This document shows positions 29,964 through 47,555 of a DNA stretch of 47,900 nt, in pieces; the first letter of the stretch is position 1; every line of letters begins with the position of its first letter. Where the stretch lies: positions 1 through 47,900 of IMG/VR virus record IMGVR_UViG_3300046330_000124; one strand, written 5' to 3'. Below the pieces are notes generated by a model. The model saw nothing but the letters and a program-made list of their open reading frames with translations, made no database searches and was not told the origin of the DNA. The translations under genes were made by a program, and so were the position numbers. Source of the DNA: a virus.

Positions 29964-30055
29964 GTGTTACAATGTAATATCTAAACAATGTTTCACATTA
30001 ACGCGACGAGTCTGCATAAATATGCAAACATTGTTTAAAAAATAAACATTGTCAC
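29823..30055. repeat. Array of AAACAWTGTTT near-palindromes (operator or iteron array)
   Basis: About ten copies of an 11-bp motif that is a palindrome apart from its central base. Copies begin at 29823, 29844, 29874, 29899, 29930, 29946, 29968 (variant TTACAATGTAA), 29983, 30026 and 30044, separated by 15-43 bases. Some copies have one half changed to TGTAA. Such a cluster can be an array of operators for a dimeric DNA-binding protein, or iterons of a replication origin. It lies directly upstream of the rightward promoter and between the two transcription blocks. The 36988-37191 HTH protein is a possible binder, by inference only. Confidence 0.7.
29932..29993. repeat. 25-bp perfect direct repeat
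   Basis: The same 25 bases occur at 29932-29956 and 29969-29993, 37 bases from start to start, with 12 bases between. Each copy joins one ACAATGTAA half-changed motif to one complete AAACAATGTTT motif through the linker TATCT. The second copy begins just after the stop codon of the 29721 frame. The exact identity over the linker shows that the unit is longer than the 11-bp motif. Confidence 0.85.
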
Positions 30056-30075
30056 ACCAAGTCATGACAAAAAAC

Positions 30076-30104
30076 TTGATTTTTTCAAGAAGTCATGCTA
30101 AAAT
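30076..30104 (+). promoter_or_regulatory. Sigma70-type early promoter
   Basis: TTGATT at 30076-30081, a 17-base spacer and TAAAAT at 30099-30104 form a good host-type promoter pointing to the early genes. Transcription would begin near 30111, within the inverted repeat TTATTGTT-T-AACAATAA (30109-30125). The -35 box is inside a small hairpin CTTGA/TCAAG, and the GTCATGAC palindrome at 30061-30068 lies just upstream. The repeat array upstream could control it. Confidence 0.65.
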
Positions 30105-30108
30105 TAAA

Positions 30109-30125
30109 TTATTGTTTAACAATAA
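30109..30125. promoter_or_regulatory. Inverted repeat at the predicted early transcription start
   Basis: TTATTGTT-T-AACAATAA is a palindrome of 8-bp arms around one central base. It covers the expected +1 of the promoter at 30076-30104, the classical place of an operator that blocks initiation. Its AACAAT arm resembles the half-site of the upstream AAACAAT motif, so the same protein may bind. Confidence 0.55.
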
Positions 30126-30194
30126 TGGGTAAAAGGTTATACCTTTGGAGGAGCTTCTCTGAAGCGAAGCCTCCTCAGATAACTTTCCCATTAT
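30122..30194 (+). ncRNA. Structured 5' leader or small RNA element
   Basis: A 73-nt segment closed by a perfect 8-bp stem ATAATGGG (30122-30129) / CCCATTAT (30187-30194). Inside are AAAGGT-TAT-ACCTTT (30132-30146) and GAGGAG (30148-30153) / CTCCTC (30171-30176), which encloses a further GCTTC-TCT-GAAGC hairpin (30153-30165). The strand 30131-30140 can alternatively pair with ATAACTTT (30179-30186), so two folds compete. It is not a tRNA (no T-loop sequence). No U-run follows, so it is not a plain terminator. It would be at the very 5' end of the early transcript. Leader control, RNA stability or an independent RNA are possible. Confidence 0.55.
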
Positions 30195-30326
30195 AAAAAC
30201 GAATACTTTTTAATTTTAGACCTCTAAATGTGAGCTTTAAAACCAATATAGTAGATATGAGATCAAAATCGCTATGCAATGTAATAACTCGCTATTATTA
30301 CACTAACAATAAGAAAAGGGACAATC
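30195..30326 (+). promoter_or_regulatory. Early leader region before first gene
   Basis: The 132 bases between the structured element and the first early gene are AT-rich and hold no gene. A TGCAATGTAATAAC element near 30275 recalls the half-changed repeat motif. The ribosome site AAAAGGG is seven bases before the ATG at 30327. No second clear promoter was found. Confidence 0.4.
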
Positions 30327-30617
30327 ATGAAACAATCCGTAAACAAGTGGACATTCCACGACGCTTTCAAAGGTATTCAATACGAGCGTAATTTCTCATA
30401 TCAAGGATTAAATGTATTATTCGACTATTTAGAATCATACGAACAAGACACCGACACTGAGATAGAGTTAGACGTCACATCACTGTGCTGTGACTATACA
30501 GAGGCTGAAATAGCTACTGTATTGGCTGATTATGGTTATTCAGATATTGACGAGTTGAGAGACAATACGACAGTGATTGAGGTCGATGACGAGACTGTAA
30601 TATATGGAGCGCATTGA
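30327..30617 (+). CDS. First early protein, unknown function
   Basis: A 96-aa acidic protein, the first gene of the rightward block. The start is supported by AAAAGGG upstream. It has a helix-rich N-terminus (WTFHDAFKGIQYERNFSYQG), a pair of adjacent Cys (LCCDY, about 51-55) and a very acidic C-terminus (VIEVDDETVIYGAH). Acidic small early proteins often bind host proteins such as RNA polymerase or nucleases, but nothing in the sequence shows the target. It is followed by the next gene with a two-base gap to ATG. Confidence 0.7.
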   Translation: MKQSVNKWTFHDAFKGIQYERNFSYQGLNVLFDYLESYEQDTDTEIELDVTSLCCDYTEAEIATVLADYGYSDIDELRDNTTVIEVDDETVIYGAH

Positions 30618-30619
30618 TT

Positions 30620-30988
30620 ATGAAAATATCAATTACATGGGAAGTTGAGGACATTAAGGTCGATCATCCTGAGTTGACCATAGATCAATGCTGTATAGTT
30701 TTAGACTATTTAAAAGTGAATCATGAAGCTAGTGTTGGTATAAATTGGGATGTGATCAAGCAAGCAGTTTTAGATTTAAAAGACTATGGTCGTAATTTTA
30801 ATATTGCAAAATATAGATATTCTGAATTAAGTCCAGAAGCTAAAGCTATGGCTCGTCAGGACTATTGGATGGGTGCAAATGATTACACACGAGCAAAATA
30901 TACAATCGAGGAGTGTGGTGAGTTTTGTGAAGATACAGAGGATGATACATTTTACAATATTGAAGGTGAGGTCATATCAAACGATTGA
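30620..30988 (+). CDS. Early protein, unknown function
   Basis: A 122-aa acidic protein. The ATG at 30620 is preferred to the in-frame TTG two codons before it, which overlaps the preceding stop. The N-terminal half looks like an alpha/beta fold (ISITWEVEDIKVDHPELTID, then QCCIVLDYL); the C-terminus is acidic with Cys residues (CGEFCEDTEDDTFYNIEGE). The CC pair is shared with the gene before it (LCCDY), a small hint that the two are related or co-operate. No family recognised. Confidence 0.65.
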   Translation: MKISITWEVEDIKVDHPELTIDQCCIVLDYLKVNHEASVGINWDVIKQAVLDLKDYGRNFNIAKYRYSELSPEAKAMARQDYWMGANDYTRAKYTIEECGEFCEDTEDDTFYNIEGEVISND

Positions 30989-31063
30989 CATATATAAGTA
31001 GTAGGCTTTATACCGTATAGCGTATAAGGTAATTGTGCTTTATTCAAACAAAAGGATAAAACA

Positions 31064-31333
31064 ATGGAATCAATTTATAAGAAATATTACAAAAAAGGCA
31101 CTGAGTATATATTCACAGATGCAGAGATATCGGATGCGGTTATTAAAAAGCAGCAATCTGCAATTATTGACTTATTGGTTAAGAAAAAAGAAGTTGAAAG
31201 CCTACAAGCACAGATCGGTAATGTATTAGAGTACTGTGAAGTGAATAACATTCAATTGGAAAACGAAGAATATAGAGCAGTGGCAGTTAGTTATTTCAAA
31301 GGTAAGTTTTGGCAAATATACAACAGAGTTTAA
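31064..31333 (+). CDS. Early helical protein, unknown function
   Basis: An 89-aa charged helical protein (ISDAVIKKQQSAIIDLLVKK, then EVESLQAQI) ending in a beta-type segment YRAVAVSYFKGKFWQIYNRV. AAAGGATAAAACA provides the ribosome site. The 75 bases before it contain an imperfect inverted repeat (ACCGTATA/TATAAGGT near 31010-31030), perhaps regulatory. A strong hairpin with a T-run follows 17 bases after its stop, so this gene may end the first early unit. Function unknown. Confidence 0.65.
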   Translation: MESIYKKYYKKGTEYIFTDAEISDAVIKKQQSAIIDLLVKKKEVESLQAQIGNVLEYCEVNNIQLENEEYRAVAVSYFKGKFWQIYNRV

Positions 31334-31349
31334 CGCACAATATCACAAA

Positions 31350-31385
31350 TTGACGTAGTGTTAGCTACGTCATATTTTATTTTTA
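31350..31385 (+). terminator. Perfect hairpin with T-run, also readable as a promoter
   Basis: TGACGTAG (31351-31358) and CTACGTCA (31365-31372) form a perfect 8-bp stem with a six-base loop, followed by TATTTTATTTTTAT, a classical rho-independent terminator. The same bases also read as TTGACG (31350-31355), a 17-base spacer and TATTTT (31373-31378), a fair sigma70 promoter with a palindromic spacer. The next gene begins at 31435, so either or both functions are possible. Confidence 0.7.
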
Positions 31386-31434
31386 TAAACAACACTCGAG
31401 AGTCGCTCCTCGGGTATTCACAAAGGGACAGACA

Positions 31435-31956
31435 ATGATACAAGATCTATACAATTTAAGTAAACATGTAGCCTCGTCAGATACCTCAAGATACCATTTA
31501 AATGGTGTTCAGGTAGACAAGCATAGCTCAGACGATAAAAAGCGTGTGTTGGTCGCTACAGACGGTCATATTATGGGTGTAATTAAGTGTGACAGTGACC
31601 TAGACATTGGTTTTTATCATTCAGATGTAATCAAAACAGCTTACAAAATGAGTGAATTAGATCAAGACTATAGTGCTATTTTAAAGCCTGATGCAGCCGT
31701 TAAATTTCCAAAATGGCAGATGTTCAATGCAACATGGGATAAGACGTTAACACATACTCCTGAGAAATTAGAGCCAGTATTGGTTAATACTGCAATTGCT
31801 TTTAATCCTGATTTATTATCACGTATTAAAAAAGGTTTAGGACTACGCAAAGCACAAGGTGTTGAGATCATCATGCGTGATCCGTTAAGTGCTGTACGAG
31901 TCAATTGTAGTGATACAACTCGACATGGTGTTATGATGCCAATGAGGGCTTTATAA
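31435..31956 (+). CDS. Truncated sliding-clamp-like protein (DnaN-like)
   Basis: A 173-aa protein resembling part of the bacterial beta sliding clamp, which tethers DNA polymerase to DNA. Residues 20-45 (RYHLNGVQVD, then VLVATDGH) match the clamp second-domain opening (RYYLNG, LVATDGHRLA). The end, residues 121-173, matches the last clamp domain (LSRIKKGLG, then IIMRDPLSAVRVN and GVMMPMRAL, like VMPMRL). Normal bacterial clamps have about 366 residues in three domains; here about one and a half remain, so the ring, if formed, would need more subunits. AAAGGGA precedes the ATG. It may serve the phage family B polymerase or trap host clamp partners. Confidence 0.65.
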   Translation: MIQDLYNLSKHVASSDTSRYHLNGVQVDKHSSDDKKRVLVATDGHIMGVIKCDSDLDIGFYHSDVIKTAYKMSELDQDYSAILKPDAAVKFPKWQMFNATWDKTLTHTPEKLEPVLVNTAIAFNPDLLSRIKKGLGLRKAQGVEIIMRDPLSAVRVNCSDTTRHGVMMPMRAL

Positions 31957-32027
31957 TGTGTTATTTAGTTGGGTTTTTCATATTAGGTGGACTTTATTCA
32001 ATGGTGGTATTTTTATGTGGTATTTAA
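31956..32027 (+). CDS. 23-aa membrane peptide frame
   Basis: A 23-residue hydrophobic frame (MCYLVGFFILGGLYSMVVFL) whose ATG overlaps the TAA of the clamp-like gene (TAATG). Its length equals a single membrane helix. The next gene starts within its last 13 bases. It may be a real small membrane protein or a translational link; there is no further evidence. Confidence 0.35.
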   Translation: MCYLVGFFILGGLYSMVVFLCGI

Positions 32028-32176
32028 GTGATATATTAAGTTTACGGACGATGTACTATATTATTCTAGGGATTGCTATCATGATAGCAGGAATAAATGC
32101 ATTAGAGAGTGATCGACTGATACAAGAAAATGAGATCTTGAGAACTGAGATGACGAAATGCATGATGAAGCAGTAA
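32015..32176 (+). CDS. Small single-span membrane protein
   Basis: A 53-aa protein with one membrane segment (about residues 13-30, MYYIILGIAIMIAGINAL) followed by a charged coiled coil (ESDRLIQENEILRTEMTK). The layout, membrane anchor plus coiled coil, is like small phage membrane proteins of unknown role, and recalls i-spanins. The ATG at 32015 gives the protein that begins just before the membrane segment; an earlier in-frame start would add a second hydrophobic stretch in the overlapping region. The end overlaps the next gene by 19 bases. Confidence 0.5.
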   Translation: MWYLSDILSLRTMYYIILGIAIMIAGINALESDRLIQENEILRTEMTKCMMKQ

Positions 32177-32565
32177 ATTCGTTGATTGAACAATATAACT
32201 TGAGACAAGATCAATATAATTATGTTGTGAATAAGTCTGATATGTTTGACAAAGATCCAAAGATTAAAAACGCTGATCGGTATTTTAATCGTAAGATTAA
32301 CTTGGTTAAGAAAATGACTCATGCAGGTTATGGTCAAGAGTTTGATAAATATAATAAAACTAAAAATGACTTCACTCGTTTGACATTCTATTTTGAGACT
32401 AGACCGATATCAGCGTTTAGAGACTACGAAAGACGCATTGAGATGTTTGAATTTAATAACTTATTCTTAGCTCGTCAGTTTGTAATACGAAGTGTCGTAA
32501 TGTTAATGATTGATGACATGGTTGAAAGTGAGAGACTATTTAAAGAGAGTGAAGGGTATATATGA
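32158..32565 (+). CDS. Helical early protein, unknown function
   Basis: A 135-aa protein with charged helices (SLIEQYNLRQDQYNYVVN at the start, then NADRYFNRKINLVKKMTHAG and TRPISAFRDYERRIEMFEF). No Cys pairs, signal or membrane segment. It starts inside the end of the membrane protein gene and is followed by about 46 bases (32566-32611) with only a 17-codon frame. Family not recognised; overlaps support that it is a true gene of this compact set. Confidence 0.6.
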   Translation: MHDEAVNSLIEQYNLRQDQYNYVVNKSDMFDKDPKIKNADRYFNRKINLVKKMTHAGYGQEFDKYNKTKNDFTRLTFYFETRPISAFRDYERRIEMFEFNNLFLARQFVIRSVVMLMIDDMVESERLFKESEGYI

Positions 32566-32611
32566 TTAAAATATTATTGATATGTGTGACAAAAGCCACT
32601 TGGATACCAGC

Positions 32612-32752
32612 ATGAACCGCTTAATAATTAAAATATATTACTTCTTTAAAAGTCTTGGATGCCAACACGCATTTTTTATCCAGAAAGAATCGTCTGGATT
32701 TATTGTTTACCAGTGTAGTGAGTGTCTTGATACAATAGGGATTCAAAAATGA
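32612..32752 (+). CDS. 46-aa Cys/His small protein
   Basis: A 46-aa frame with a zinc-knuckle-like arrangement: GCQHAFF around residues 16-22 and YQCSEC at about 34-39. The pattern C-x-H ... C-x-x-C fits small phage proteins with a Zn site of the KCLFGH...CxxC kind. There is no strong ribosome site before its ATG, which lowers confidence. Its end overlaps the start of the next frame by four bases (ATGA). Confidence 0.45.
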   Translation: MNRLIIKIYYFFKSLGCQHAFFIQKESSGFIVYQCSECLDTIGIQK

Positions 32753-32886
32753 CACTAATCGTATTTATAAAACGAATGTTCATCCGAAACAATCAACCGA
32801 TAGTTGCCAAACAAGGCATAAAAACTATAACTATTTACCCAAATGGTGACAGGAGTATTAAGTATGACACTAATCGAACAAATTAA
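32749..32886 (+). CDS. 45-aa basic small protein
   Basis: A 45-aa basic frame (MTLIVFIKRMFIRNNQPIVA, later TITIYPNGDRSIKYD) starting in the ATGA overlap with the gene before it; AGGG lies nine bases upstream. Its first 13 bases (ATGACACTAATCG) are identical to the start of the next gene at 32864. The frame ends 23 bases inside that next gene. It may be a fragment left by a local duplication or a small early gene. Confidence 0.4.
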   Translation: MTLIVFIKRMFIRNNQPIVAKQGIKTITIYPNGDRSIKYDTNRTN

Positions 32887-33106
32887 ATTAGAAATAGAGC
32901 GTATGACAGAAGACTATACAGATTTACATGAAGGCGGCGGTCTAGCATTTTTTGAAGGTGCTCAGTCACTCTTGCCCGTTATAGAAAAGCTATTTAAAGA
33001 CCGCAACAATTCATTTCATATAGCTTATGAATATTATGGAGGCGCGTCTTCTGTAATTGAAAAACTTGATGTCGAACTACTCTCAATATTACGAGGTGAG
33101 ACGTGA
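32864..33106 (+). CDS. 80-aa early protein, unknown function
   Basis: An 80-aa acidic protein. The ATG at 32864 is preferred to one seven codons earlier since AGGAG lies eight bases upstream of it. The sequence TEDYTDLHEGGGLAFFEGAQ (about 15-34) followed by LLPVIEKLFKDR resembles small phage proteins with the pattern FxxGAxxxLP...L, often found in early clusters of Gram-negative phages and uncharacterised. The end overlaps the next GTG start (GTGA). Confidence 0.55.
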   Translation: MTLIEQIKLEIERMTEDYTDLHEGGGLAFFEGAQSLLPVIEKLFKDRNNSFHIAYEYYGGASSVIEKLDVELLSILRGET

Positions 33107-33297
33107 GCAATTACACACATCAAAACTACACTTTGTCCGCAGGCGCAGACCCAGTTAAAGAAGCGTGGAGCAATCTAATTAAGTCGGCAAAAATCGTAGC
33201 AAGTCCATTTTGTGAAGAAACTATTATATTGGTATCGCTTGAAACAATGCAAAAGCTAACTGAAATTGGATGTGTAAAACATAAGGAGTCAAAATGA
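33103..33297 (+). CDS. 64-aa early protein
   Basis: A 64-aa frame with GTG start overlapping the upstream stop and GAGGTGAG just before it. The core reads VKEAWSNLIKSAKIVASPFC, then an alternating hydrophobic strand (EETIILVSLETMQKLTEI) and a Cys/His-containing tail. No family recognised. It ends four bases into the next small gene. Confidence 0.5.
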   Translation: MSNYTHQNYTLSAGADPVKEAWSNLIKSAKIVASPFCEETIILVSLETMQKLTEIGCVKHKESK

Positions 33298-33422
33298 TTC
33301 AAAAGATTAAATGCTTTTTCGGATTTCACGAGATGTGGCAAGACCCAGATTTTCAACCGTCTAGAACCATAACGTGCAAACACTGTTGGTACTATGACCT
33401 TAGAGGACGAGGTTCAAAATGA
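33294..33422 (+). CDS. 42-aa zinc-ribbon-like small protein (DUF1660-like pattern)
   Basis: A 42-aa frame with AAGGAGTC seven bases before the ATG. It has IKCFFGFHEMW (residues 5-15) and TCKHCWYYD (about 27-35), that is C-x4-H and C-x-x-C. This is the pattern of the small phage DUF1660-type proteins (LFGHKW...CxxCG), presumably a one-zinc fold of unknown role. Four-base overlaps at both ends mark it as part of the same translation chain. Confidence 0.6.
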   Translation: MIQKIKCFFGFHEMWQDPDFQPSRTITCKHCWYYDLRGRGSK

Positions 33423-33790
33423 ATCAGCAAATTAAACGATATGCTTTCACTGAAATATTGATAAGCGGAATTGTTTGCTATCACAAGGCACCAGCTAGTC
33501 ACGGCGAATATGTTCTCTTTTCTGATTACCAAGCTGCAATGAGCGAACTAGAGAGCCAAGTAAGGATCATGAACGCAAAAATGCTGACGGAACACTCGAC
33601 GTCTCTAAGGCTAAAAGACGCCGAGCTTTATATTTCAAATATGGAAGCTAGAAAAGATAGGCTTCAAGCCAAGCTCGATAAGGCGATATTCTTTCTGAAG
33701 CTACACCCTAGATATAATGACGACATGACAGAACGGGCGTTATTTGTAGACGTACAACAGTTTTTATTAGAACTGAAAGAAGGTAAGTGA
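33419..33790 (+). CDS. Coiled-coil early protein (Ead/Ea22-like layout)
   Basis: A 123-aa protein. The segment HGEYVLFSDYQAAMSELESQ (about 28-47) followed by a long charged coiled coil resembles the Ead/Ea22-type early proteins of Gram-negative phages, in which YVLxSDYxAL leads into a helix. Their function is not known. It starts with overlap to the preceding small gene and ends overlapping the membrane protein gene (TGATG). Confidence 0.55.
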   Translation: MNQQIKRYAFTEILISGIVCYHKAPASHGEYVLFSDYQAAMSELESQVRIMNAKMLTEHSTSLRLKDAELYISNMEARKDRLQAKLDKAIFFLKLHPRYNDDMTERALFVDVQQFLLELKEGK

Positions 33791-33981
33791 TGAGACAGTT
33801 ATTATGGGATTTTGCTGCTATGATTTATTTATTGCTTTCTATTGGACTCTTTTTGTGGATTCTAAGTATTGGCATCTGTTTGAGTGATTATTACAACCTG
33901 TTTTATTTGGAGCGAGGACTTGTGCTTGCCATTATTTTATTTCTCATAGTTTTTATTATTATGTTGGGGTATTTTAAATGA
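33790..33981 (+). CDS. 63-aa protein with two membrane segments
   Basis: A 63-aa hydrophobic protein with two predicted membrane helices: residues about 8-30 (AAMIYLLLSIGLFLWILSIG) and 40-61 (GLVLAIILFLIVFIIMLGYF). The short charged turn between them (SDYYNLFYLER) fits a hairpin of the holin or superinfection-exclusion type. The ATG at 33790 overlaps the upstream stop. The amidase gene lies seven hundred bases further on, so a holin role is possible but not shown. Confidence 0.55.
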   Translation: MRQLLWDFAAMIYLLLSIGLFLWILSIGICLSDYYNLFYLERGLVLAIILFLIVFIIMLGYFK

Positions 33982-34244
33982 ATAAACAAACATATAGAGA
34001 GTATTTTGTAGTAGATTCTGAGAAAATTAACAGACGACCTACTAGAGTATATAACACATACCCTTCATGGCTAGAAGGATTTGTAGAAATTATTCACGTC
34101 ATAGAAATCGCAGCCCTAACCGAAGCCAATGCCAGAATAGAGAAGCTGAGAATAGCATTGCGCGATATAACTATTTGTTCTAGTAGAGACGATGCTAGCT
34201 ACAGAGCGAGTTCTGCGCTTAAAGAAGATGATGGTGGGGTATGA
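33978..34244 (+). CDS. Early protein with Ead-like C-terminus
   Basis: An 88-aa protein. The N-terminal half (YREYFVVDSEKINRRPTRVY) is not recognised. The C-terminal half (EANARIEKLRIALRDITICS, then ASYRASSAL) matches the helix-plus-ASxAL ending of phage Ea22/Ead-type early proteins. Overlaps of four bases on both sides link it to the neighbours. Function unknown; such genes are often dispensable in the phages that carry them. Confidence 0.5.
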   Translation: MNKQTYREYFVVDSEKINRRPTRVYNTYPSWLEGFVEIIHVIEIAALTEANARIEKLRIALRDITICSSRDDASYRASSALKEDDGGV

Positions 34245-34489
34245 GTCATATAATCGGTAAGGTCTACGAAGTGAATAAAGAAAATATGAATAAGTTGATT
34301 GCGGAGTTGGATATGACTCGTGAAAAACTAAGATTAACAGTAAACGAATTATTAGATTTAAAACGTAAATCAGAAAAAGCTATAAATGCCTTAGAGAGTG
34401 TAACTAATACAGAAATAGGAACTGATTTTACTGTGGTAGATTCTTTAGTACTACAGAAAGCACTTAATACTCTATCGGGTATAAAATGA
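34241..34489 (+). CDS. Helical early protein
   Basis: An 82-aa protein almost wholly charged helix (KENMNKLIAELDMTREKLRL, then VNELLDLKRKSEKAINALE), ending VVDSLVLQKALNTLSGIK. No Cys, signal or membrane segment. GGTGGGG precedes the ATG, which overlaps the upstream stop. Probably a coiled-coil dimer. Function unknown. Confidence 0.5.
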   Translation: MSHIIGKVYEVNKENMNKLIAELDMTREKLRLTVNELLDLKRKSEKAINALESVTNTEIGTDFTVVDSLVLQKALNTLSGIK

Positions 34490-34671
34490 ATAATTATCCA
34501 CCAGGATTCGATCCACAAATGTTAGAAGATGACTCAAAACCGATACCTTTTGATCAATTACTAACCGAACATGGTGATTGTGAGTGGTGTCATAGAAAAG
34601 ATCTTGATCTATTTAAAGGTCAATGTGAAACTTGCTACAACTCTGATCCAGAGTTTTTTGAAAAGGAATAA
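34486..34671 (+). CDS. Small double-CxxC zinc-finger protein
   Basis: A 61-aa acidic protein with two Cys pairs, CEWC (about 32-35) and CETC (about 47-50), spaced by 11 residues; this should form a single zinc ribbon. The N-terminus is Pro/Asp-rich (NNYPPGFDPQMLEDDSKPIP). Such proteins often bind nucleic acid or a protein partner. Its ATG overlaps the upstream stop (ATGA) and its stop lies one base before the amidase ATG. Confidence 0.6.
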   Translation: MNNYPPGFDPQMLEDDSKPIPFDQLLTEHGDCEWCHRKDLDLFKGQCETCYNSDPEFFEKE

Positions 34672-34672
34672 T

Positions 34673-35572
34673 ATGAATAGAGAAGATTTATACACTATTC
34701 GATGGTTTGCGAAAAAAATTAAACAGGAATCAACCGATCCTCATGTTGATTCACTATGTGACCAACAGATTGCTTTGATCTCACAAGTATTGGGTGAAGC
34801 AGTACCGGAAGATGTAAAGCCTGAAGAGCCTGATCGTCCCGATACTAATCCTACAGTACCTGTAACTACACCTAAACCAGTGTTTTTGACTAAACTTGGT
34901 GAGAAGAAACTTTGGTATCCAGATGCGATTCAAGTCCCAAAGATGAAGGCTAAAGGAAATTATCCTAATAATTATCCAGCAGGGGTCGTTGTACATTTTA
35001 CAGCTGGTAGATATGAAAATGGTTTTGAAAATGCTAAATCATCTTGTGCTTACGGAGCTACTCAAGGTTATTTATATATGTGCATGGGTACTGACGGTAA
35101 GATTGCACAACCTAATAATCTATCTGAGTGGGGTTATCATGCTGGTGAGTCCGCATGGGAAATTAACGGTAAAAAAGTCAAAGGTGTTTCAGATCGACTA
35201 ATGGGGATGGAAATGTGTAATCCTGGACGATTGGGATTGAAAAACGGAAAGTATTATACATATTACGACACTAGCTTTAAAAACCCTATTGAACCTAAAG
35301 ATGTTCGCATCATTAAAGAGAGCAAGGACTCTCAATTTGCAGGCGCATATTTACCTTATACTAAAGAGCAAGAGGCGGCACTAGTTAAATTCTTACTTTG
35401 GATGAAGTGGAATAATCCAAGTGTATTTAATTTCGACTATGTTTTAGGTCATTGCGAAGTGGCTGGAATGCGTGGAATAGGTTACTGGAGAAAAAACGAT
35501 CCGTCAGGGGCACTTTCTATGGACATGGATTCATTTAGAGCTTTACTTAAAAAAGAATATGCGAAGTTATAA
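34673..35572 (+). CDS. N-acetylmuramoyl-L-alanine amidase endolysin
   Basis: A 299-aa endolysin that should cut the amide bond between N-acetylmuramic acid and the peptide of peptidoglycan. Residues 1-60 are an acidic helical/linker region; the amidase_2 domain follows at about 75-295. Likely zinc ligands are His108 (VVVHFTAG), His260 (LGHCEV) and Asp276 (KNDPSGAL), with GYHAG around His156 in the active site. The ATG at 34673 has AAGGA seven bases upstream. There is no signal peptide, so a holin is needed for release. Its 3' end abuts the inserted HNH gene. Confidence 0.85.
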   Translation: MNREDLYTIRWFAKKIKQESTDPHVDSLCDQQIALISQVLGEAVPEDVKPEEPDRPDTNPTVPVTTPKPVFLTKLGEKKLWYPDAIQVPKMKAKGNYPNNYPAGVVVHFTAGRYENGFENAKSSCAYGATQGYLYMCMGTDGKIAQPNNLSEWGYHAGESAWEINGKKVKGVSDRLMGMEMCNPGRLGLKNGKYYTYYDTSFKNPIEPKDVRIIKESKDSQFAGAYLPYTKEQEAALVKFLLWMKWNNPSVFNFDYVLGHCEVAGMRGIGYWRKNDPSGALSMDMDSFRALLKKEYAKL

Positions 35573-36045
35573 TGGTTAAACATGGAATGAATAAAACCAC
35601 CGAATACACAATTTGGGAAGGCATCAAGCAAAGATGCCTTAATTCAAAAAATAAATGCTATTATAAATACGGCGGACGCGGCATTGATGTTTGCGAAAAG
35701 TGGTTAAAATTTGAAGGGTTCTTTGAAGATATGGGACATCGACCATCAAAAGATTATTCTATTGATAGGATCAATAACGACCTTGGTTATTCTAAAGAAA
35801 ACTGTAAATGGTCAACCCGAAGTGAACAGAATAGAAACATTGGTAAGAAAAAAGGAAGTTCAGACTACAAGGGTGTTCACTTCAGAAAAGACACGGGAAA
35901 ATATTCAGTCAGTATTTATCACGAGGGTAAGAATAAATATTTTGGGTGCTATTTAGATCCGAAAGAGGCAGCGATTGAATATGATAAAATTTGCTGGGCT
36001 AAATTCAATGACAAAAGATACCTCAACTTTCCAGAGAACTACTAA
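35572..36045 (+). CDS. HNH homing-type endonuclease with AP2 DNA-binding domain
   Basis: A 157-aa protein. The N-terminal half contains the HNH-type fold found in phage free-standing homing nucleases (TIWEGIKQRCLNSKNKCYY, then SIDRINNDLGYSKENCKW at about 63-80). The C-terminal half is an AP2-like DNA-binding domain (about 97-150, SSDYKGVHFRKDTGKYSVSI with YFGCYLDPKEAAIEYD). The ATG overlaps the amidase stop (TAATG). A 28-base imperfect repeat flanks the gene, near 35544-35573 and 36041-36066, as expected for insertion of a mobile gene. It may nick related phage DNA and copy itself there. Confidence 0.85.
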   Translation: MVKHGMNKTTEYTIWEGIKQRCLNSKNKCYYKYGGRGIDVCEKWLKFEGFFEDMGHRPSKDYSIDRINNDLGYSKENCKWSTRSEQNRNIGKKKGSSDYKGVHFRKDTGKYSVSIYHEGKNKYFGCYLDPKEAAIEYDKICWAKFNDKRYLNFPENY

Positions 36046-36064
36046 AAAAGGAGTATGCGAAACT

Positions 36065-36298
36065 ATGAAAATGAGTGAAAAAATCATTAAAGAAACAAAC
36101 AGAGCATTTTCTTTAGTACAAGAAGATACAAAAGAATTATTTGATCGAGTAGAGCAATTAGAATCAAAATTAAATCAAATAGAAGTCTCAGTCATTGAAG
36201 ACTTACGTCATGTTTTACGAATGACTTTAATTTGTTTACTTGGTTCAGCAGGTCTTGTTATAATTATTTATAAAATTTTTAACCATTACGTTGGGTAA
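36065..36298 (+). CDS. XhlA-like coiled-coil membrane protein
   Basis: A 77-aa protein with an N-terminal coiled coil (about 14-45, VQEDTKELFDRVEQLESKLN) and a C-terminal membrane segment (about 52-70, MTLICLLGSAGLVIIIYKIF). This matches the XhlA layout known next to endolysins; only the HNH gene separates it from the amidase. AAAAAGGAG lies 12 bases before the ATG. It may be the holin partner. The gene at 5584-5799 has the same layout. Confidence 0.6.
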   Translation: MKMSEKIIKETNRAFSLVQEDTKELFDRVEQLESKLNQIEVSVIEDLRHVLRMTLICLLGSAGLVIIIYKIFNHYVG

Positions 36299-36397
36299 TG
36301 GTCAATAGCACAAGGGTTTAATAGTATTACCTTTCGAGACGTGTTTACCGAGCGTTGTGTATCTTCGGTTAAATTTTAAATCAGGAGGGACACTGAT
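36299..36397 (+). promoter_or_regulatory. Intergenic gap before replication genes
   Basis: About 99 bases with no gene. ACCGA and TCGGT with a 13-base spacer (near 36350-36372), followed by TTAAATTTTAAAT, could be a weak terminator. The strong ribosome site AGGAGGG lies eight bases before the next ATG. No clear promoter was seen. Confidence 0.35.
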
Positions 36398-37000
36398 ATG
36401 AGACCTAAATTACCACGTGCAATGCGTGAAACATACTTAAGTAACTTTAAATTTCCTTACGACTTTAATAAAAACCGAGACTTTTATTTAAACAATAAAC
36501 CGTTTTTAAATCTAATGGTTCAGTTGTTAATCACTCGTGAATTAACTAAGAAAACATTCTTTAGAGGTATTCCAAAAGAGTTTAAAATACGAGACACTGA
36601 TTGGTATCCTGACAATGAGTTGTTACAAGAGAAGCTTCAAATTTATAAACTTGTTCAAGTCTTGTATGTTGGACGAACAAAACCTTACGCTCTTGTTGAT
36701 CTTTTAAAATATGCGTATCGAGTTGATATAGATATTTTTAAATGCACAGAAGACGATAAAGGTAATATTACTTTTGATAATATTAAAATCATGGAAGCTT
36801 GTTTATATAAATTAAACGAGTCCGGTATGGTTGAGATATCTAATTACGAGTACCCTAATGGTGTATCATATCAGTATATAAGACCAAGTATTGCACTTAA
36901 AACAATTAAATCATCTAAGTCAGATATCCGAGTAGCAAACAGAATTAAAACAGCATCAGACAATGTCAAACAAGGTAAGGTTCCGTCGTGGAAAAAATAG
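36398..37000 (+). CDS. 200-aa protein opening the replication module
   Basis: A 200-aa basic protein with a very good ribosome site. It starts MRPKLPRAMRETYLSNFKFP and has a middle region with two helix-rich parts (LVDLLKYAYRVDIDIFKCTE, then IMEACLYKLNESGMVEISNY) that read like a winged-helix DNA-binding domain, the last strand being SYQYIRPSI. The C-terminus is basic. It could be an origin-binding or regulatory protein because it precedes an HTH protein and the helicase. Family not recognised; the wing is inferred from the pattern only. Confidence 0.6.
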   Translation: MRPKLPRAMRETYLSNFKFPYDFNKNRDFYLNNKPFLNLMVQLLITRELTKKTFFRGIPKEFKIRDTDWYPDNELLQEKLQIYKLVQVLYVGRTKPYALVDLLKYAYRVDIDIFKCTEDDKGNITFDNIKIMEACLYKLNESGMVEISNYEYPNGVSYQYIRPSIALKTIKSSKSDIRVANRIKTASDNVKQGKVPSWKK

Positions 37001-37191
37001 AGAAGCAACAATTACTTAACAATTTTTTAACAGGTTTTAATATGTCACCTCAAGACTTTGCAATGCTTATGTCAATGAACAAACTCTCAATTAAATATTG
37101 GTTGAGCGGTGAGCGTGAGATGCCAGACCACGTCGCTAAACTTTTAAATATGTTTATGCGTAATCCAAGTTTGTTGAACGAGTTTTACTAA
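36988..37191 (+). CDS. Small HTH DNA-binding protein
   Basis: A 67-aa protein with GTG start, AAGG eight bases upstream and a 13-base overlap with the gene before. Residues about 16-52 (MSPQDFAMLMSMNKLSIKYW, then LSGEREMPDHVAKLLNMF) show a Cro/XRE-type helix-turn-helix: a first helix, turn, recognition helix and a following W-x-x-G segment. It could repress early transcription through the AAACAWTGTTT sites at 29823-30055; this is inference. The next gene starts with a TAATG overlap. Confidence 0.7.
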   Translation: MEKIEKQQLLNNFLTGFNMSPQDFAMLMSMNKLSIKYWLSGEREMPDHVAKLLNMFMRNPSLLNEFY

Positions 37192-38867
37192 TGAAAAAAC
37201 AGTTACGAGAATATCAGATTGAGATAAAAGATCGAGTATATAAAGAGTATTCAAAAGGTAAAAGATCAATTCTTTTAGTGTTGCCAACTGGATGTGGAAA
37301 AACCGTAACATTCGTTTCAATGGTAGAAGAAATATCACGAAATGAACAGTTCGGTGAGAATCATTCGAGTGCTATCATGGTTCACAGAAAAGAATTACTT
37401 GCACAGATTAGTTTAACTTTAGCAGGGGAAGGTATTGTTCATAATATTATTGCACCTGCTGCAACAATAAGAAATATTATTGCACTTCAACGTCAACAGT
37501 ACGGTAAACAATTTTATAATCACAATTCAAACGTGACGATTCTTTCAGTCGATACACTTAATTCTAGAATTTCCAGATATGGTGACTGGGCTAAAGGTAT
37601 TAAATTTATAGTCGTAGATGAAGCGGCTCATGTGTTGAAAGCCAACAAGTGGGGACGTGCTGTAGATTTATTTCCACAAGCTCGGATACTCGGTGTGACT
37701 GCTACTCCACAAAGACTAGATAAAAAAGGTTTAGGTATTGAAACAGACGGAGTGTTTGAGAAAATAATAGTAGGTGTTACTCCTCGTTGGGCTATTGATA
37801 ATGGATACTTATCTAAATATAAAATCGTAGCACCTAAGTCAGACTACGAACAATACTTAGGTCATAATAAAAGTACAACATCTGATTACTCCAAAGAACA
37901 AATGTCAGACGCAAGTGAGAAGTCTCAAATTGTTGGAGACGTTGTGCAAAACTATCAAAAGTTTGCAGCCGGAAAACAGTCAATTGTTTTTGCTTCTGAT
38001 ATTGCAAGCGCAAGACGAATGGAAAAAGAATTTTTAGATGTTGGAATACCTGCAAAGTTATTGACAGGTGAGAGTTCTGACAAAGAACGCTTCGACGGTG
38101 TTCAAGCTTTTAAAGACAATAAGATAAATGTTTTATTAAATGTTGATTTGTTTGACGAAGGATTTGACATAGCGGTTAGTAAAGATAAAAAGATAGTCGA
38201 GATAGTATCACTTGCAAGACCTACCATGAGTCTAGGAAAGTATCTTCAAACTATCGGTCGAGCATTACGTCCTGCACCTAATAAAGAATACGCTTTAATT
38301 ATTGATCATGTTGGTAATATTAAACGTCATGGTTTACCTTGTACCGAACGTAAGTGGTCTTTAGATCGTCCAGAGAAGCGTCGTAATCTTGAGAGCTTGG
38401 TGAGGATTTGTAACGGTTGTGCGGCAGCTTATGAGAGGTCATTAACAGAGTGTCCGTTTTGTGGATTAGAAGCGACAAGCAAGACTCGTGACGGTGGTGG
38501 TCGCACTCCTCCCGATCAAGTGGATGGAGATCTGTTTTTAATTGATCCTGATACACTGAGAGAGCTTGAACATGCGACTATACTAGAGACTCCAGAGTCT
38601 ATAGGACAACGTGTCGGTGCAGCAGCAGGCTTGATAGCTGGTAAAAGTGCAGCTAAAAAACAAAGAGAGCGTATCGAAGTACAGCAAAAGTTAGCAGAAG
38701 TCGTAGCTAATTGGGCTGGTCAGATGAAGTCAAAAGGTATGACAGATCGACAGATACACAAAGAGTATTATATTAAATTTGGTAAAACTATTTCACAAAG
38801 TTTAGCAGAACCAAGGTTACAAATGACAGAGATGATAGAGGAGTTAAGTGATTATGCAACCATCTAA
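37191..38867 (+). CDS. RadD-like superfamily 2 DNA helicase
   Basis: A 558-aa DEAD/DEAH-type helicase. Motif I is LPTGCGKT (31-38), motif II VVDEAAH (about 141-147), motif III GVTATPQRLD (about 168-177), and motif VI QTIGRALRP (about 355-363). A Cys4 zinc element CNGC...CPFCG follows the helicase core at about 405-425, as in RadD/YejH of enterobacteria. It should unwind or remodel DNA during replication or recombination. The ATG overlaps the HTH gene stop and the end overlaps the nuclease gene. Confidence 0.85.
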   Translation: MKKQLREYQIEIKDRVYKEYSKGKRSILLVLPTGCGKTVTFVSMVEEISRNEQFGENHSSAIMVHRKELLAQISLTLAGEGIVHNIIAPAATIRNIIALQRQQYGKQFYNHNSNVTILSVDTLNSRISRYGDWAKGIKFIVVDEAAHVLKANKWGRAVDLFPQARILGVTATPQRLDKKGLGIETDGVFEKIIVGVTPRWAIDNGYLSKYKIVAPKSDYEQYLGHNKSTTSDYSKEQMSDASEKSQIVGDVVQNYQKFAAGKQSIVFASDIASARRMEKEFLDVGIPAKLLTGESSDKERFDGVQAFKDNKINVLLNVDLFDEGFDIAVSKDKKIVEIVSLARPTMSLGKYLQTIGRALRPAPNKEYALIIDHVGNIKRHGLPCTERKWSLDRPEKRRNLESLVRICNGCAAAYERSLTECPFCGLEATSKTRDGGGRTPPDQVDGDLFLIDPDTLRELEHATILETPESIGQRVGAAAGLIAGKSAAKKQRERIEVQQKLAEVVANWAGQMKSKGMTDRQIHKEYYIKFGKTISQSLAEPRLQMTEMIEELSDYATI

Positions 38868-39270
38868 TGAATCAGAAGTCGGTCAACTGATCCAATTAAA
38901 AGCAAGTCAAGAGTCCTCTATCTTGTTCCGAAATAATTCGGGTGCTTTTAAAGATGCGACAGGGCGACCAGTACGCTTTGGTCTAGGTAATGTATCTAAG
39001 AAATTTAATGCTCATATGAAGTCGTCTGACTATATTGGGATCACAAGAGTTGTTATTACTCCAGAGATGGTCGGTAAAACTGTAGGAGTTTTTACAGCTG
39101 TTGAGGTTAAAGAACCTAACTGGACTTGGTCTGGTACGGAAAGAGAATTAGCACAAGAAAAATACATTAAAGTAATTCAGTCACATGGCAGCATAGGATT
39201 TTTTGCCAAAAGTGTTGACGACTACATAAATGGAATAGAAGATTATATTTTTAGAGCAAGCGCAAAGTAG
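38854..39270 (+). CDS. VRR-NUC family nuclease
   Basis: A 138-aa PD-(D/E)XK nuclease of the VRR-NUC type, which acts on branched DNA. The pattern is complete: Glu8 (NESEVG), RNNSGAF (26-32), Asp59 (SSDYIGI), Glu84-x-Lys86 (AVEVKEP) and Gln101 (AQEKYI). The ATG at 38854 was chosen over an in-frame GTG two codons before, as GAGG lies seven to eight bases upstream of it. The gene ends in a hairpin. Stand-alone VRR-NUC proteins are common in phage replication modules beside helicases and can resolve Holliday or flap structures. Confidence 0.85.
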   Translation: MQPSNESEVGQLIQLKASQESSILFRNNSGAFKDATGRPVRFGLGNVSKKFNAHMKSSDYIGITRVVITPEMVGKTVGVFTAVEVKEPNWTWSGTERELAQEKYIKVIQSHGSIGFFAKSVDDYINGIEDYIFRASAK

Positions 39271-39317
39271 CTCTTTGCGTTCATGGTACGATGGGAGTTT
39301 TGTCCCCTCTCATCGTA
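39261..39317 (+). terminator. Two adjacent hairpins between nuclease and primase genes
   Basis: First hairpin: CGCAAAG (39261-39267) / CTTTGCG (39273-39279), a perfect 7-bp stem with a five-base loop that contains the TAG stop of the nuclease. Second: TACGATGGGAG (39287-39297) / CTCTCATCGTA (39307-39317), an 11-bp stem with one G-U pair and a nine-base loop. After the second hairpin comes TCGCTCACTTTTTACT, which gives a U-run about 12 bases downstream. Partial termination or mRNA-end protection is possible. Confidence 0.55.
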
Positions 39318-39357
39318 TCGCTCACTTTTTACTAACAGAGGACAAGGGACGATCAAC

Positions 39358-41271
39358 ATGTTCAAGATATTTCCAGCGACTTTAACATCTGACAACAAAA
39401 AGATTCCGTTGATACGCGATTGGCAATCGTTAGCAACTGATAACCAAGAGCAGATTGTAAAGTGGCAACAACAATTTGGATCTCATTTAACATTCTGGGG
39501 AATACCATGTGGGTCTACCAATGGTATCATTGCATTAGATATTGATATTAAAACCGTAGACGGTTTCCAGTCTATCGTCGATAACAACTTAGACATTCCT
39601 GAAACTATGTCACAAACTACAATGACTGGTGGTAAACATTACGTTTATAAATTACCAGAGGGTTTGACTGTAGGTAATACTACAGGGACTTATGGTAAAG
39701 GTATTGATACTCGCGGTCAGGGCGGTTGGATTGCGTACTATGGCTTCGACAAGACTCCAATGGTTGATGCTCCTGAGTGGTTACTTAAACCTAAAGAGAA
39801 GAGCACAAAAGAGATCCATAATAATTTTAAAATTGAACAAAAGTTTGCAGAAGAAATGCTTGTTGAGATTTGTTACGATGTTATTAACGCTCCTCCAGGG
39901 GAATCAAATGACTTACTTAATAAGAAATCTTTCCAAGCTGCACAGGATTTAATATCTACAGGTAGTCTGCCTCATGAGACAGTATTTAATTATCTGTTTC
40001 AAGCTGCTAAACAACGTGGAAAAACTGATCACGAAGCAAGAGCTACAATCAACTCCGGTATAAATGCTGGTATTAAAGTGGCTCCGACTATTAACTGTCC
40101 TTTTACTCCACAGCCTGTCCAAAATATGGCAACCGATCCTACTCGTTGGACACCACCTGAGACAACATTCGATGGTATGATGGACGAGAGTAAGCTTAGA
40201 AAACCTCAGCTATTTAAAGACTGGTCAACTGAAGACATTCACATTACTACGGCAGACGGTGGTACAGGTAAGACGACGCTTGCGCTATATGAGTCTGTTT
40301 GTCTTGCGTTAGGTGAGAGGTTCTTAGGGTTTGAATGTTTACAACCAGGAGCTAAGACTTTGTTTTTAATCGGTGAGGATGACACTGAGAAGACTGTATC
40401 GGTATTAGGTGCAATATGTCGTCAGATGAAACTAACACCAGAACGATTTGAAAAAGTTAGAAAAAGTATATTCATTAAAAAAGATACTGACATGTGCTTC
40501 ATAACCAAAGATAGACTTGGCTTCTTACATCCGAATCATTCAGCGTTGGAGAAGTTATTGCAAGCCATTAACGATATCAAACCCAAGCGTATTGTGATAG
40601 ATCCAATCGCATCATTTTGGGGAAGTGAAGCGGCTCTTAATGATATGTCAAAGGCGGTGGCTAAGTTTGCGGGACTCTTACGTGATAGATCAGGTGCTCA
40701 AGTAGAGTTGATCAATCACATGGGTAAGTCGTCGTCTCAGTCCAAAGATGTAACTCAATTTGCTGGTCGAGGGGGATCAGCGTTACCTTCACACTCTCGT
40801 GTTGGTCGAGTCTATAGATCATTGGATAAGAATGAGTATTTTGATCTGACAGGTAACACTCTAGAACAAGGTCAAGCACTTCCCTTGTTCTGTCAGGTTA
40901 CTAAGTTTACCGACGGAAGTCCTTTGCTTAACAATCCTTTCACTATATTTAGAACTAATTATTCGTTTGAGAGAGTAAATATTACTAAAGAATTAGAAGA
41001 AGAAGTCGATACGAAAGCAGACATTGAGTACGTGTATGAGTTCTTGAGAGAAGCTAGACTTGGTGGTAAATATGTCACCAAAGAAATGACTATCTCTATG
41101 ATGCGTCAGCACATGAGTAAAGATAGAACGGTTGATGCGTTAAACATTTTACAATTTAAAGGGTTCGATAATAAGAAAATAGATTATGTCGACAATCCTG
41201 ACATGAGTAAGAGCAAGGTTATAATTTTTACAGACCTTAGTGGTCAAGAAATAGGAAAGGAGAATCTATGA
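39358..41271 (+). CDS. Primase-polymerase and RecA-like helicase fusion
   Basis: A 637-aa replication protein. Residues 1-165 form a bifunctional primase/polymerase domain: ALDIDIKT (Asp61, Asp63), GGKHYVYKLP (His94) and GIDTRGQGGWIAYYG (115-129). Residues about 285-480 form a RecA/RepA-type ATPase with Walker A TADGGTGKTT (298-307) and Walker B RIVIDPIASFWG (Asp415). It should make primers and unwind the fork. The ATG at 39358 follows AAGGGA; an ATG further upstream lies inside the hairpin region. The last bases overlap the Lys-rich peptide gene (ATGA). Confidence 0.85.
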   Translation: MFKIFPATLTSDNKKIPLIRDWQSLATDNQEQIVKWQQQFGSHLTFWGIPCGSTNGIIALDIDIKTVDGFQSIVDNNLDIPETMSQTTMTGGKHYVYKLPEGLTVGNTTGTYGKGIDTRGQGGWIAYYGFDKTPMVDAPEWLLKPKEKSTKEIHNNFKIEQKFAEEMLVEICYDVINAPPGESNDLLNKKSFQAAQDLISTGSLPHETVFNYLFQAAKQRGKTDHEARATINSGINAGIKVAPTINCPFTPQPVQNMATDPTRWTPPETTFDGMMDESKLRKPQLFKDWSTEDIHITTADGGTGKTTLALYESVCLALGERFLGFECLQPGAKTLFLIGEDDTEKTVSVLGAICRQMKLTPERFEKVRKSIFIKKDTDMCFITKDRLGFLHPNHSALEKLLQAINDIKPKRIVIDPIASFWGSEAALNDMSKAVAKFAGLLRDRSGAQVELINHMGKSSSQSKDVTQFAGRGGSALPSHSRVGRVYRSLDKNEYFDLTGNTLEQGQALPLFCQVTKFTDGSPLLNNPFTIFRTNYSFERVNITKELEEEVDTKADIEYVYEFLREARLGGKYVTKEMTISMMRQHMSKDRTVDALNILQFKGFDNKKIDYVDNPDMSKSKVIIFTDLSGQEIGKENL

Positions 41272-41345
41272 AAAAGATGGTAACTAAAAAAGTAGCACCT
41301 AAGAAAGTAGTTAAAACTACAGCTAAAAAAGCAATCAAGAAGTAA
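41268..41345 (+). CDS. 25-aa lysine-rich peptide
   Basis: A 25-residue frame with AAGGAG seven bases before its ATG, overlapping the upstream stop. Eleven residues are Lys, in a histone H1-like pattern (KKVAPKKVVK, then AKKAIKK). It has no acidic residues. It should bind DNA or RNA non-specifically, for instance to compact or shield phage DNA or as a helicase cofactor. The hairpin terminator follows within ten bases. Low-complexity frames can arise by chance, but the ribosome site and overlap favour a gene. Confidence 0.55.
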   Translation: MKKMVTKKVAPKKVVKTTAKKAIKK

Positions 41346-41351
41346 TTCTTG

Positions 41352-41385
41352 TGCGGAGACCTAAACCACCTCCGCATCATTTTGC
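41352..41385 (+). terminator. Hairpin terminator after Lys-rich peptide
   Basis: TGCGGAG (41352-41358) and CTCCGCA (41370-41376) form a perfect 7-bp GC-rich stem with an 11-base loop, followed by TCATTTTGC. The tail is short in U, so termination may be partial. Confidence 0.6.
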
Positions 41386-41433
41386 TTGCTTTAATTAAAT
41401 AATATATTAAACTTAACAAACAAGGAGAAAAAT
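41386..41433 (+). promoter_or_regulatory. Short gap with ribosome site
   Basis: AT-rich gap between the hairpin and the next gene; AAGGAG lies about seven to eight bases before the ATG at 41434. TTAATTAAATAATATATTAAAC could hold a promoter -10, but no matching -35 is evident. Confidence 0.3.
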
Positions 41434-41586
41434 ATGTGGTCACATAAGAAATACAAAGAGTTATTTACAGGAAGCTACGGATACCTAAAGAAAGATAGAG
41501 TGTTTCAATTAACGTCTCAGTCTGGTAAAAAAGTTATTAGCTTCGAGTCGTTTCAACAAGCTAAGAAACAAGGCTGGACTAAATGA
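41434..41586 (+). CDS. 50-aa basic protein
   Basis: A 50-aa basic protein with CAAGGAG before the ATG. The sequence WSHKKYKELFTGSYGYLKKD then VFQLTSQSGKKVISFESFQQ reads as two short beta-hairpins with many aromatic and Lys residues, ending AKKQGWTK. Small basic proteins in phage replication modules may bind nucleic acids. Family not recognised. The end overlaps the next ATG by four bases (ATGA). Confidence 0.55.
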   Translation: MWSHKKYKELFTGSYGYLKKDRVFQLTSQSGKKVISFESFQQAKKQGWTK

Positions 41587-42098
41587 AATTAGAAATCACA
41601 TTCACAACACTTGCTGATTTGAAAAAACAATTAGGTGATTTACTAGAAGATATGGAAGTGTCACACATTCAGTCGGGTTTTGATCTTTTTGTGAAGGAAT
41701 CAATTCAAGAATTACCTGAGTCTATTCCAACAGAAGAGATAAAAGTTGAGCAACCAAAGCAACCACGAGCTACTCGTAAGCCTAAAGTTGAAGTCAAAGA
41801 AGAAGAAGTTGTAATTGCTCCGATCGTAGCTGAAGTAAAGGTTGAAGCAGAAATGACTATACCTAATTCAGATGTTCCTAAGAACTTTTACTCTGAGTCA
41901 GAGTTCATTAGAAATTTTGCACAGGTTATCAATCATTTGTTGTCGTCGAAATCTGTTGATCAAAAGTACATACAAGATAAATGTATGAAGTATGGAATAG
42001 CTTTCATCTACGCTTTGTCATCTGACAAACCAAAGATGATTCAGTTTTATTCTGAGCTGGTCAATGAAGGTATCGTAACTAAAAAGGGTGATTACTAA
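41583..42098 (+). CDS. 171-aa two-part protein with charged linker
   Basis: A 171-aa protein: an N-terminal part with a coiled coil (FTTLADLKKQLGDLLEDMEV), a Pro/Lys/Glu/Val-rich linker (about 50-95, e.g. QPKQPRATRKPKVEVKEEEV) and a C-terminal helical domain (about 105-171, SESEFIRNFAQVINHLLSSK then KMIQFYSELVNEGI). The tail domain looks like a small protein-binding module. It lies in the recombination part of the replication block. No family recognised. A link between replication proteins is possible. Confidence 0.6.
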   Translation: MKLEITFTTLADLKKQLGDLLEDMEVSHIQSGFDLFVKESIQELPESIPTEEIKVEQPKQPRATRKPKVEVKEEEVVIAPIVAEVKVEAEMTIPNSDVPKNFYSESEFIRNFAQVINHLLSSKSVDQKYIQDKCMKYGIAFIYALSSDKPKMIQFYSELVNEGIVTKKGDY

Positions 42099-42099
42099 T

Positions 42100-43188
42100 A
42101 TGGAACAGGGACAAGAGATAGTAATACGAAGTAGTTCTTTACCGAGAATCATGGTCTGTAACGGATCGTTAAGTTTAAAGACTCCTCCACAAGAAGACTC
42201 AGATGTAGCCAAAGAAGGTACAGCGTTTCATGAGCTTGTAGAGTCAATCCATAAGGGTCTACTTGTTGCTGAGACTGCAAAGAACGGTGTAATTTTTGAT
42301 GGTGATATGTATCACTATGCAAATAAAGTGCTACCACTTATTCCACTTGATGCCCAATGTGAAACTGAGATTGAGTTTCCAGTCGTAGATAGTATCAAGG
42401 TAAAAGGTCATCTGGATTATTGTTGGGAAGAAGACGGTGGTGACACACTGGTTGTAATGGATATTAAATATGGTCACAGAATTGTAGAGGTTAAAGACAA
42501 CTGGCAACTTATATCTTACGGTATTGGCGAGTTGGTAAAGCGTCAAAGACAATACAACAAGATCATACTTAGAGTCATTCAACCAAGACCACATCACTGG
42601 AATGGTTTTGTAAGAGATGAAGTTTTGACGACAGAAAAAATGTTTGAATACTATCAGTTCATGCAAGAAACATTACAGGTTTATAAAGAAGGTAACATCC
42701 GATTCAATACGTCAGACAAGTGTAGATATTGTCCGGCATTGCAACAGGAGTGTCCGGCTATAAACAAAGCTTTCTTCAACGCGGTAGATGTGTCATTGAA
42801 CGACAAAGTTCAAGACAACTTAACAGATGATGAAATATCTAACATACTTAAATTATATGACAGAGTTAAAGATATATTCAAAGTTAAGATTGATGCTATC
42901 CAAGATCTTGCAAAGAAGAGATTAAAAGAGGGTGCGTCAATTAGAGGTTATTCTTTACAACCAACTTTTAGTAACAGAAAATGGTCAAGCTCATTAGATG
43001 CGGAAGCATTTAAAATTATGTCAACCTTTGATTTAACAGAGAAGACATTAATGAGTCCGGCACAAGCTGAGAAAAAAGGTGTACCTAAAGAATTAGTAGC
43101 AAGCTTTACAGAAACAGTTCAAACAGGTTTTAAATTAGCAGAAGTAGACGAAACATTATTAGCAAACAAATTGTTCAACAACAACTAA
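42100..43188 (+). CDS. DUF2800 Cas4/AddB-like Fe-S nuclease
   Basis: A 362-aa PD-(D/E)XK exonuclease-type protein with a predicted 4Fe-4S cluster. Nuclease residues are HEL (His44-Glu45), GHLDY (Asp106), VMDIKYG (Asp121, Lys123) and NWQLISY (Gln136). Cluster Cys are Cys20 and then CRYCPALQQEC (Cys208, 211, 218), the Cas4/AddB arrangement. DUF2800 genes travel with DUF2815 and a DNA polymerase in many phages and probably work in recombination. The ATG at 42100 is chosen although a GTG at 42088 is in frame, because the ribosome site sits too close to the GTG. Confidence 0.8.
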   Translation: MEQGQEIVIRSSSLPRIMVCNGSLSLKTPPQEDSDVAKEGTAFHELVESIHKGLLVAETAKNGVIFDGDMYHYANKVLPLIPLDAQCETEIEFPVVDSIKVKGHLDYCWEEDGGDTLVVMDIKYGHRIVEVKDNWQLISYGIGELVKRQRQYNKIILRVIQPRPHHWNGFVRDEVLTTEKMFEYYQFMQETLQVYKEGNIRFNTSDKCRYCPALQQECPAINKAFFNAVDVSLNDKVQDNLTDDEISNILKLYDRVKDIFKVKIDAIQDLAKKRLKEGASIRGYSLQPTFSNRKWSSSLDAEAFKIMSTFDLTEKTLMSPAQAEKKGVPKELVASFTETVQTGFKLAEVDETLLANKLFNNN

Positions 43189-43204
43189 ACAAAAGGAAAA
43201 TAAA

Positions 43205-43405: not shown

Positions 43406-43425
43406 ATAAACAAAAGGAAAATAAA

Positions 43426-44214: not shown

Positions 44215-44233
44215 TCGCTTCTCTCTTAACGCT

Positions 44234-44266
44234 TGTCCCGACGTTTAAATCGGGACACTTTTATTT
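44234..44266 (+). terminator. Rho-independent terminator just before the polymerase gene
   Basis: TGTCCCGA (44234-44241) and TCGGGACA (44250-44257) form a perfect 8-bp stem with an eight-base loop, followed by CTTTTATTT. The polymerase ATG starts at 44267, within ten bases of the stem, so polymerase expression depends on read-through, antitermination or hairpin opening. Confidence 0.8.
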
Positions 44267-47518: not shown

Positions 47519-47524
47519 ACTATA

Positions 47525-47551: not shown

Positions 47552-47555
47552 CTAA

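Follow-up and report, generated by a model that had tools for sequence, protein, structure and literature searches.

A half-size relative of the beta sliding clamp in phages appears to keep the partner-docking pocket and to have lost the dimer interface

The window (the whole stretch of DNA analysed, 47,900 nucleotides of IMG/VR record IMGVR_UViG_3300046330_000124) carries at 31435–31956 on its plus strand an intact open reading frame, from ATG to stop, that encodes a 173-residue protein, here called P0001 or the mini-clamp (Table 1). The gene is preceded by a likely ribosome-binding site and, further 5', by a terminator-like hairpin, one of six such sites in the surrounding 4-kb region where 1.4 would be expected. 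Promoter-like matches in the region are not above chance (23 against 18.7 expected), and models of defence systems find no match. As the original prediction held, the gene lies early and apart from the replication genes, the PolB-like polymerase (44267–46204, PHROG 1252) being 12 kb away. Two other ORFs in the early and replication region, 36398–37000 and 41583–42098, gave weak and odd Pfam matches below the cut-off, to a phage head N-terminal domain and to Wadjet JetA. A megablast search with positions 30000–47900, the half of the window that holds the early and replication genes, returned no match.

Table 1. The mini-clamp gene, its flanking signals and the clamp segments recognized within it.
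Feature	Position	Strand	Basis
Terminator-like hairpin and T-rich tail, directly 5' of the gene	31351..31372	+	9-pair stem
Weak sigma-70-like promoter match TTGACG-17-TATTTT, overlapping the hairpin	31350..31378	+	sequence match
AGGGA, likely ribosome-binding site, 6 nt 5' of the start	31424..31428	+	sequence read
Mini-clamp gene P0001, 173 aa	31435..31956	+	open frame; PHROG 3007 5.8e-12; TIGR00663 3.5e-5
First half of domain 2, residues 1–58	31435..31608	+	E. coli DnaN alignment; TIGR00663 133–184
RYHLNG = DnaN R152–G157; pocket R152 and L155 kept	31489..31506	+	alignment
ATDGH = DnaN A171–H175; pocket T172, G174 and H175 kept	31555..31569	+	alignment
Second half of domain 2, residues 59–101, ending KFPKWQMF = DnaN 240–247	31609..31737	+	alignment
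Linker, residues 102–117, at the site of the missing first half of domain 3	31738..31785	+	alignment
Second half of domain 3, residues 118–173	31786..31953	+	alignment; TIGR00663 317–366 weak
VMMPMR = DnaN V360–R365, C-terminal wall of the pocket	31930..31947	+	alignment

Several independent models relate P0001 to the bacterial beta clamp and bear out its description as a half-size sliding-clamp relative. The DnaN model TIGR00663 aligns residues 10–55 with model positions 142–184 (E 3.5e-5), at a score of 22.9 bits that is far under the DnaN equivalog cut-off of 137.65 bits. Run against the window DNA, the same model matches at 31435–31599 (model positions 133–184) and, as a very weak tail match (E 4.5), at 31792–31947 (317–366); the two matches are collinear, both fall inside the P0001 gene and there are none elsewhere in the window. 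Further matches are to PHROG 947, ‘DNA polymerase processivity factor’ (8e-6), to PHROG 3007 (5.8e-12, with residues 12–172 covering profile positions 17–186 of 190) and, below the cut-off, to Pfam PF02767 (0.004). Because P0001 has no close relatives by tblastn in GenBank phages and none in viral contigs, relatives were reached via a family profile, and when this 47-member profile (P0001 included) was compared with the PDB the significant matches were all beta clamps (best 2e-29). The resemblance to DnaN is thus beyond chance, and the protein is, as far as sequence models can tell, clamp-derived.

The family aligns to E. coli DnaN at about 134–252 and about 312–366, segments that were chosen from the alignment itself; residues can be mapped exactly within the conserved blocks but only approximately outside them. 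P0001 accordingly consists of an essentially complete domain 2 fused to the latter half of domain 3. Like the rest of the family it lacks domain 1 and the front half of domain 3, and none of the neighbouring ORFs scanned for the missing half matches clamp domains. The original prediction joined the start of domain 2 to the end of domain 3; the collinear order of the two pieces stands, but essentially the whole of domain 2 is kept, as is evident from KFPKW (P0001 residues 90–94), which matches RFPDY at DnaN 240–244. Its estimate of one to one and a half domains can be narrowed on the same alignment to one and a half. Within KFPKWQMF, P242 is kept while R246 and V247 are replaced by M and F, and the linker that follows is longer in P0001 than in its relatives. 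In enterobacterial members (e.g. L020, L024, L028) a short KxPTKF segment takes the place of the helix-like stretch in the latter half of domain 2; a family-wide loss of this helix was considered and dropped, since only the enterobacterial subgroup looks so and the stretch is kept in many other members and in P0001.

On profile and tree evidence, P0001 is a divergent member of the widespread phage family PHROG 3007, in which it forms the longest branch. Other members, such as Escherichia phage TheodorHerzl gp07, Snoke gp006 and Sodalis phage SO-1 gp7, share its length class (about 165–250 residues), build and pocket residues, and the family occurs in laboratory phages of E. coli K-12, TheodorHerzl among them. 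One of the scans of viral contigs gave 274 matching stretches. Of the 114 distinct ORFs extracted, nearly all are 165–260 residues long, bar three short fragments, and the sole full-length clamp among them is the E. coli control. A 325-residue reading (L040) holds a typical mini-clamp in its C-terminal part. The mini-clamp profile also scores E. coli DnaN strongly, and the PHROG 3007 profile has matches in nine bacterial control genomes, presumably at dnaN. In Edwardsiella phage PEi21 (L011, 14310–14879) two ORFs in different frames make up the gene, and the parts are 73 nt apart both there and in the related phage PVN06, an equal spacing that indicates either a frameshift or a broken gene common to both phages.

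The family is therefore not new to the databases, where its members are called ‘DNA polymerase III beta subunit’, ‘sliding clamp’, ‘DNA polymerase III sliding clamp’ or ‘RusA-like Holliday junction resolvase’; a genome paper also names a member ‘sliding clamp’, by prediction only (PMC9825357). No functional study of PHROG 3007 was found in the literature searched, in which its function is apparently unstudied. The resolvase label, given to PHROG 3007 and carried into RefSeq records NC_021342, NC_013600, NC_048112 and NC_054645, appears wrong for clamp-related proteins. Nothing besides the label speaks for a RusA-like resolvase, an identity that we regard as refuted and to which we would assign practically no probability: the RusA model in Pfam matches 0 of the 47 aligned members, whereas Pfam beta-clamp domain 2 matches 39, the clamp PHROG 947 matches 44 and PHROG 3007 itself all 47, and the significant PDB matches are clamps without exception.

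What the retained segments hold can be judged from the residues listed for the DnaN partner pocket (18 residues), dimer interface and DNA contacts in a review (PMC11139829). All 18 pocket residues lie inside segments 134–252 and 312–366, none of the 14 dimer-interface residues is retained in the family, and a single one of six DNA contacts remains, the position of Q149, usually as Asn. Pocket columns of the family average 3.31 bits of information against 1.38 elsewhere (none of 100,000 permutations was as high), with 77 per cent identity to E. coli DnaN at pocket columns and 18 per cent at the others. P0001 itself is identical to E. coli DnaN at 12 of 18 pocket residues and 16 of the 156 others (Fisher 2.9e-7); besides its two substitutions in KFPKWQMF it has L instead of Y323, and loss of these three residues, which sets it apart from other members, may weaken its pocket. 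The new finding, as read from the alignment, is that the pocket falls wholly within the retained pieces and is strongly conserved, while the dimer interface is wholly lost. Such conservation argues that docking has been maintained and says nothing about its purpose; since the same residues are conserved in true clamps, it cannot separate a decoy from a clamp.

The loss of the interface bears on whether these proteins could encircle DNA. By the interface residues in PMC11139829, the native ring closes where the front half of domain 3 meets the back half of domain 1 in the next subunit; the mini-clamp has neither of these halves, so the usual closure is impossible. The original prediction had offered a ring of more subunits loaded for the phage polymerase, and three half-domains in each of four subunits would indeed give the usual twelve half-domains, as a matter of arithmetic only. 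Native ends, however, pair with first halves of domains, and because both remaining ends here are second halves, no existing interface should be able to close such a homo-oligomer. With all listed interface residues lost as well, the mini-clamp is scarcely conceivable as a classical ring clamp, and judging by which halves provide the pocket and interface residues, the retained piece looks like a contiguous arc around the pocket.

The carrier phages make a ring for the phage polymerase still harder to sustain. The clamp superfamily includes T4 gp45, the trimeric phage clamp (PF02916), to which neither P0001 nor the other 46 members have a Pfam match, and one T4-like carrier, Morganella phage vB_Mm5 (Straboviridae), already has its own gp45 about 52 kb from its mini-clamp (L025, 3746–4264). 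A PolA match is present in 15 of 40 carrier records and a close match to the PolB-like PHROG 1252 in three, with a weak one in Mm5, and no DNA polymerase is annotated in the carriers LPST10, Skarpretter and Obolenskvirus ZC3, so that the family stands beside unrelated polymerases or none that is annotated. Conversely, of the phages checked that have a polymerase of the window's type, most are without the gene, among them MZH0603, P106B, Barba19A, KpV52, phi_270 and AAM22. The varied polymerases, the carriers with none annotated and these six phages together imply that the gene is not tied to one polymerase and is dispensable to the window's type, and that a multi-subunit ring loaded for the phage polymerase is very improbable.

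A clamp relative need not close a ring to serve a polymerase. Herpesvirus UL42 has the clamp fold but partners the virus's own polymerase without forming a closed ring, and a mini-clamp of this kind, a monomer or dimer that binds DNA, would tether a phage polymerase with neither ring nor loader. The gene lies directly behind the DNA polymerase gene in PEi21 (PolB-like) and in four PolA-type contigs, and the family is more basic than DnaN (median pI 6.6, P0001 8.5, E. coli DnaN 5.2), both of which fit such a factor. In the window, however, the polymerase is 12 kb away and in many carriers it is distant; the carriers' polymerases vary or, unlike that of UL42, are absent from the annotation, and phages with the same polymerase type do without the gene. 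No clamp-binding motif was found with the patterns used in the PolA-type polymerases examined, including those that adjoin the gene, and the QIDLY stretch of the PolB-like type was rejected as evidence of clamp binding because phages have it whether or not they carry the gene. We rank this open processivity factor third and consider it quite unlikely. In a wider search for clamp-binding peptides, the strict motif occurs 0 times in the window proteins where 0.45 would be expected, and two looser forms occur six times each (4.9 and 2.2 expected), counts that are not clearly above chance.

Elsewhere the gene keeps other company. Often it is a lone gene on the opposite strand within virion operons, a position like that of an accessory gene, and in others it sits in operons with methyltransferase and dUTPase genes; among 54 members whose neighbours were called with a simple ORF caller, both neighbours are on the same strand in 30 and both on the other strand in 7. 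Phages expected to rely on the host replisome also retain the mini-clamp. In the main rival to the reading preferred below, the protein would be an adaptor that docks host motif proteins (Pol III, ligase, clamp loader, repair proteins) and ties them through another surface to phage DNA or the phage replisome. The pocket evidence applies equally to an adaptor, which would suit carriers with no annotated polymerase and the family neighbourhoods that hold DNA polymerase, primase, dUTPase and methyltransferase genes. In the family alignment, however, no additional domain and no other surface stands out as conserved, and genomic positions are highly variable; we judge an adaptor unlikely, though a better candidate than a UL42-like factor.

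The reading we prefer, to which we would give not quite an even chance, is that of a soluble mimic of the pocket that competes for clamp-binding proteins, probably those of the host. The part of the clamp that is kept is exactly the docking pocket, and for this reason the original suggestion of a decoy for host clamp partners is favoured. The unrelated polymerases of the carriers, the six phages that lack the gene, its frequent solitary place within virion operons and the adjoining PolA-type polymerases devoid of a clamp-binding motif point the same way. What the sequence shows is homology, segment content and pocket conservation, and we infer the fold, a soluble ringless state, binding, a host target and a benefit to the phage. 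A beta-clamp relative that has shed its ring-making parts would be made as a soluble protein and would bind partner proteins through their short clamp-binding motifs (QLxLF type). These partners would most likely be the host's: Pol III alpha, clamp-loader delta, Hda, translesion polymerases, MutL and others. Docking of motif proteins away from a ring would be the simplest common function and would entail competition with the host clamp, by which replication and repair machinery could be biased during infection.

Other points weigh against a mimic, besides the ambiguity of pocket conservation and the three pocket residues lost in P0001. A strong decoy would harm phages that have no polymerase of their own and depend on host Pol III, and the position directly behind a polymerase gene in PEi21 and the four PolA-type contigs fits a role in replication. 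Where carriers depend on Pol III, a total block is improbable, and mild competition or selective re-routing would be the better fit. Single clamp-binding motifs bind the clamp rather weakly, so that loosely held partners should be hit more than a working replisome, and weak competition of this sort would let phages that rely on host Pol III carry the gene. A phage protein aimed at the clamp pathway has a precedent in Twort Gp168, an inhibitor of the S. aureus clamp that binds the DNA channel of the host clamp (PMC11139829), whereas the mini-clamp, on the preferred reading, would mimic the clamp itself and capture the proteins that dock on it.

Extended to the family, the proposal is that many unrelated phages carry a soluble beta-clamp pocket mimic, a clamp trimmed to its pocket that competes for or re-routes the host's clamp-binding proteins, and here our confidence falls somewhat further below even. 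Database records name these proteins sliding clamps or resolvases, but their sequence points to a clamp trimmed to its docking pocket, with no sign of a resolvase. If the proposal is true, these proteins would make up a class of host-takeover protein that copies a hub instead of binding it. Should they bind clamp partners, they would be a general phage tool for redirecting host replication and repair, and also a natural scaffold against the clamp hub, which is an antibiotic target.
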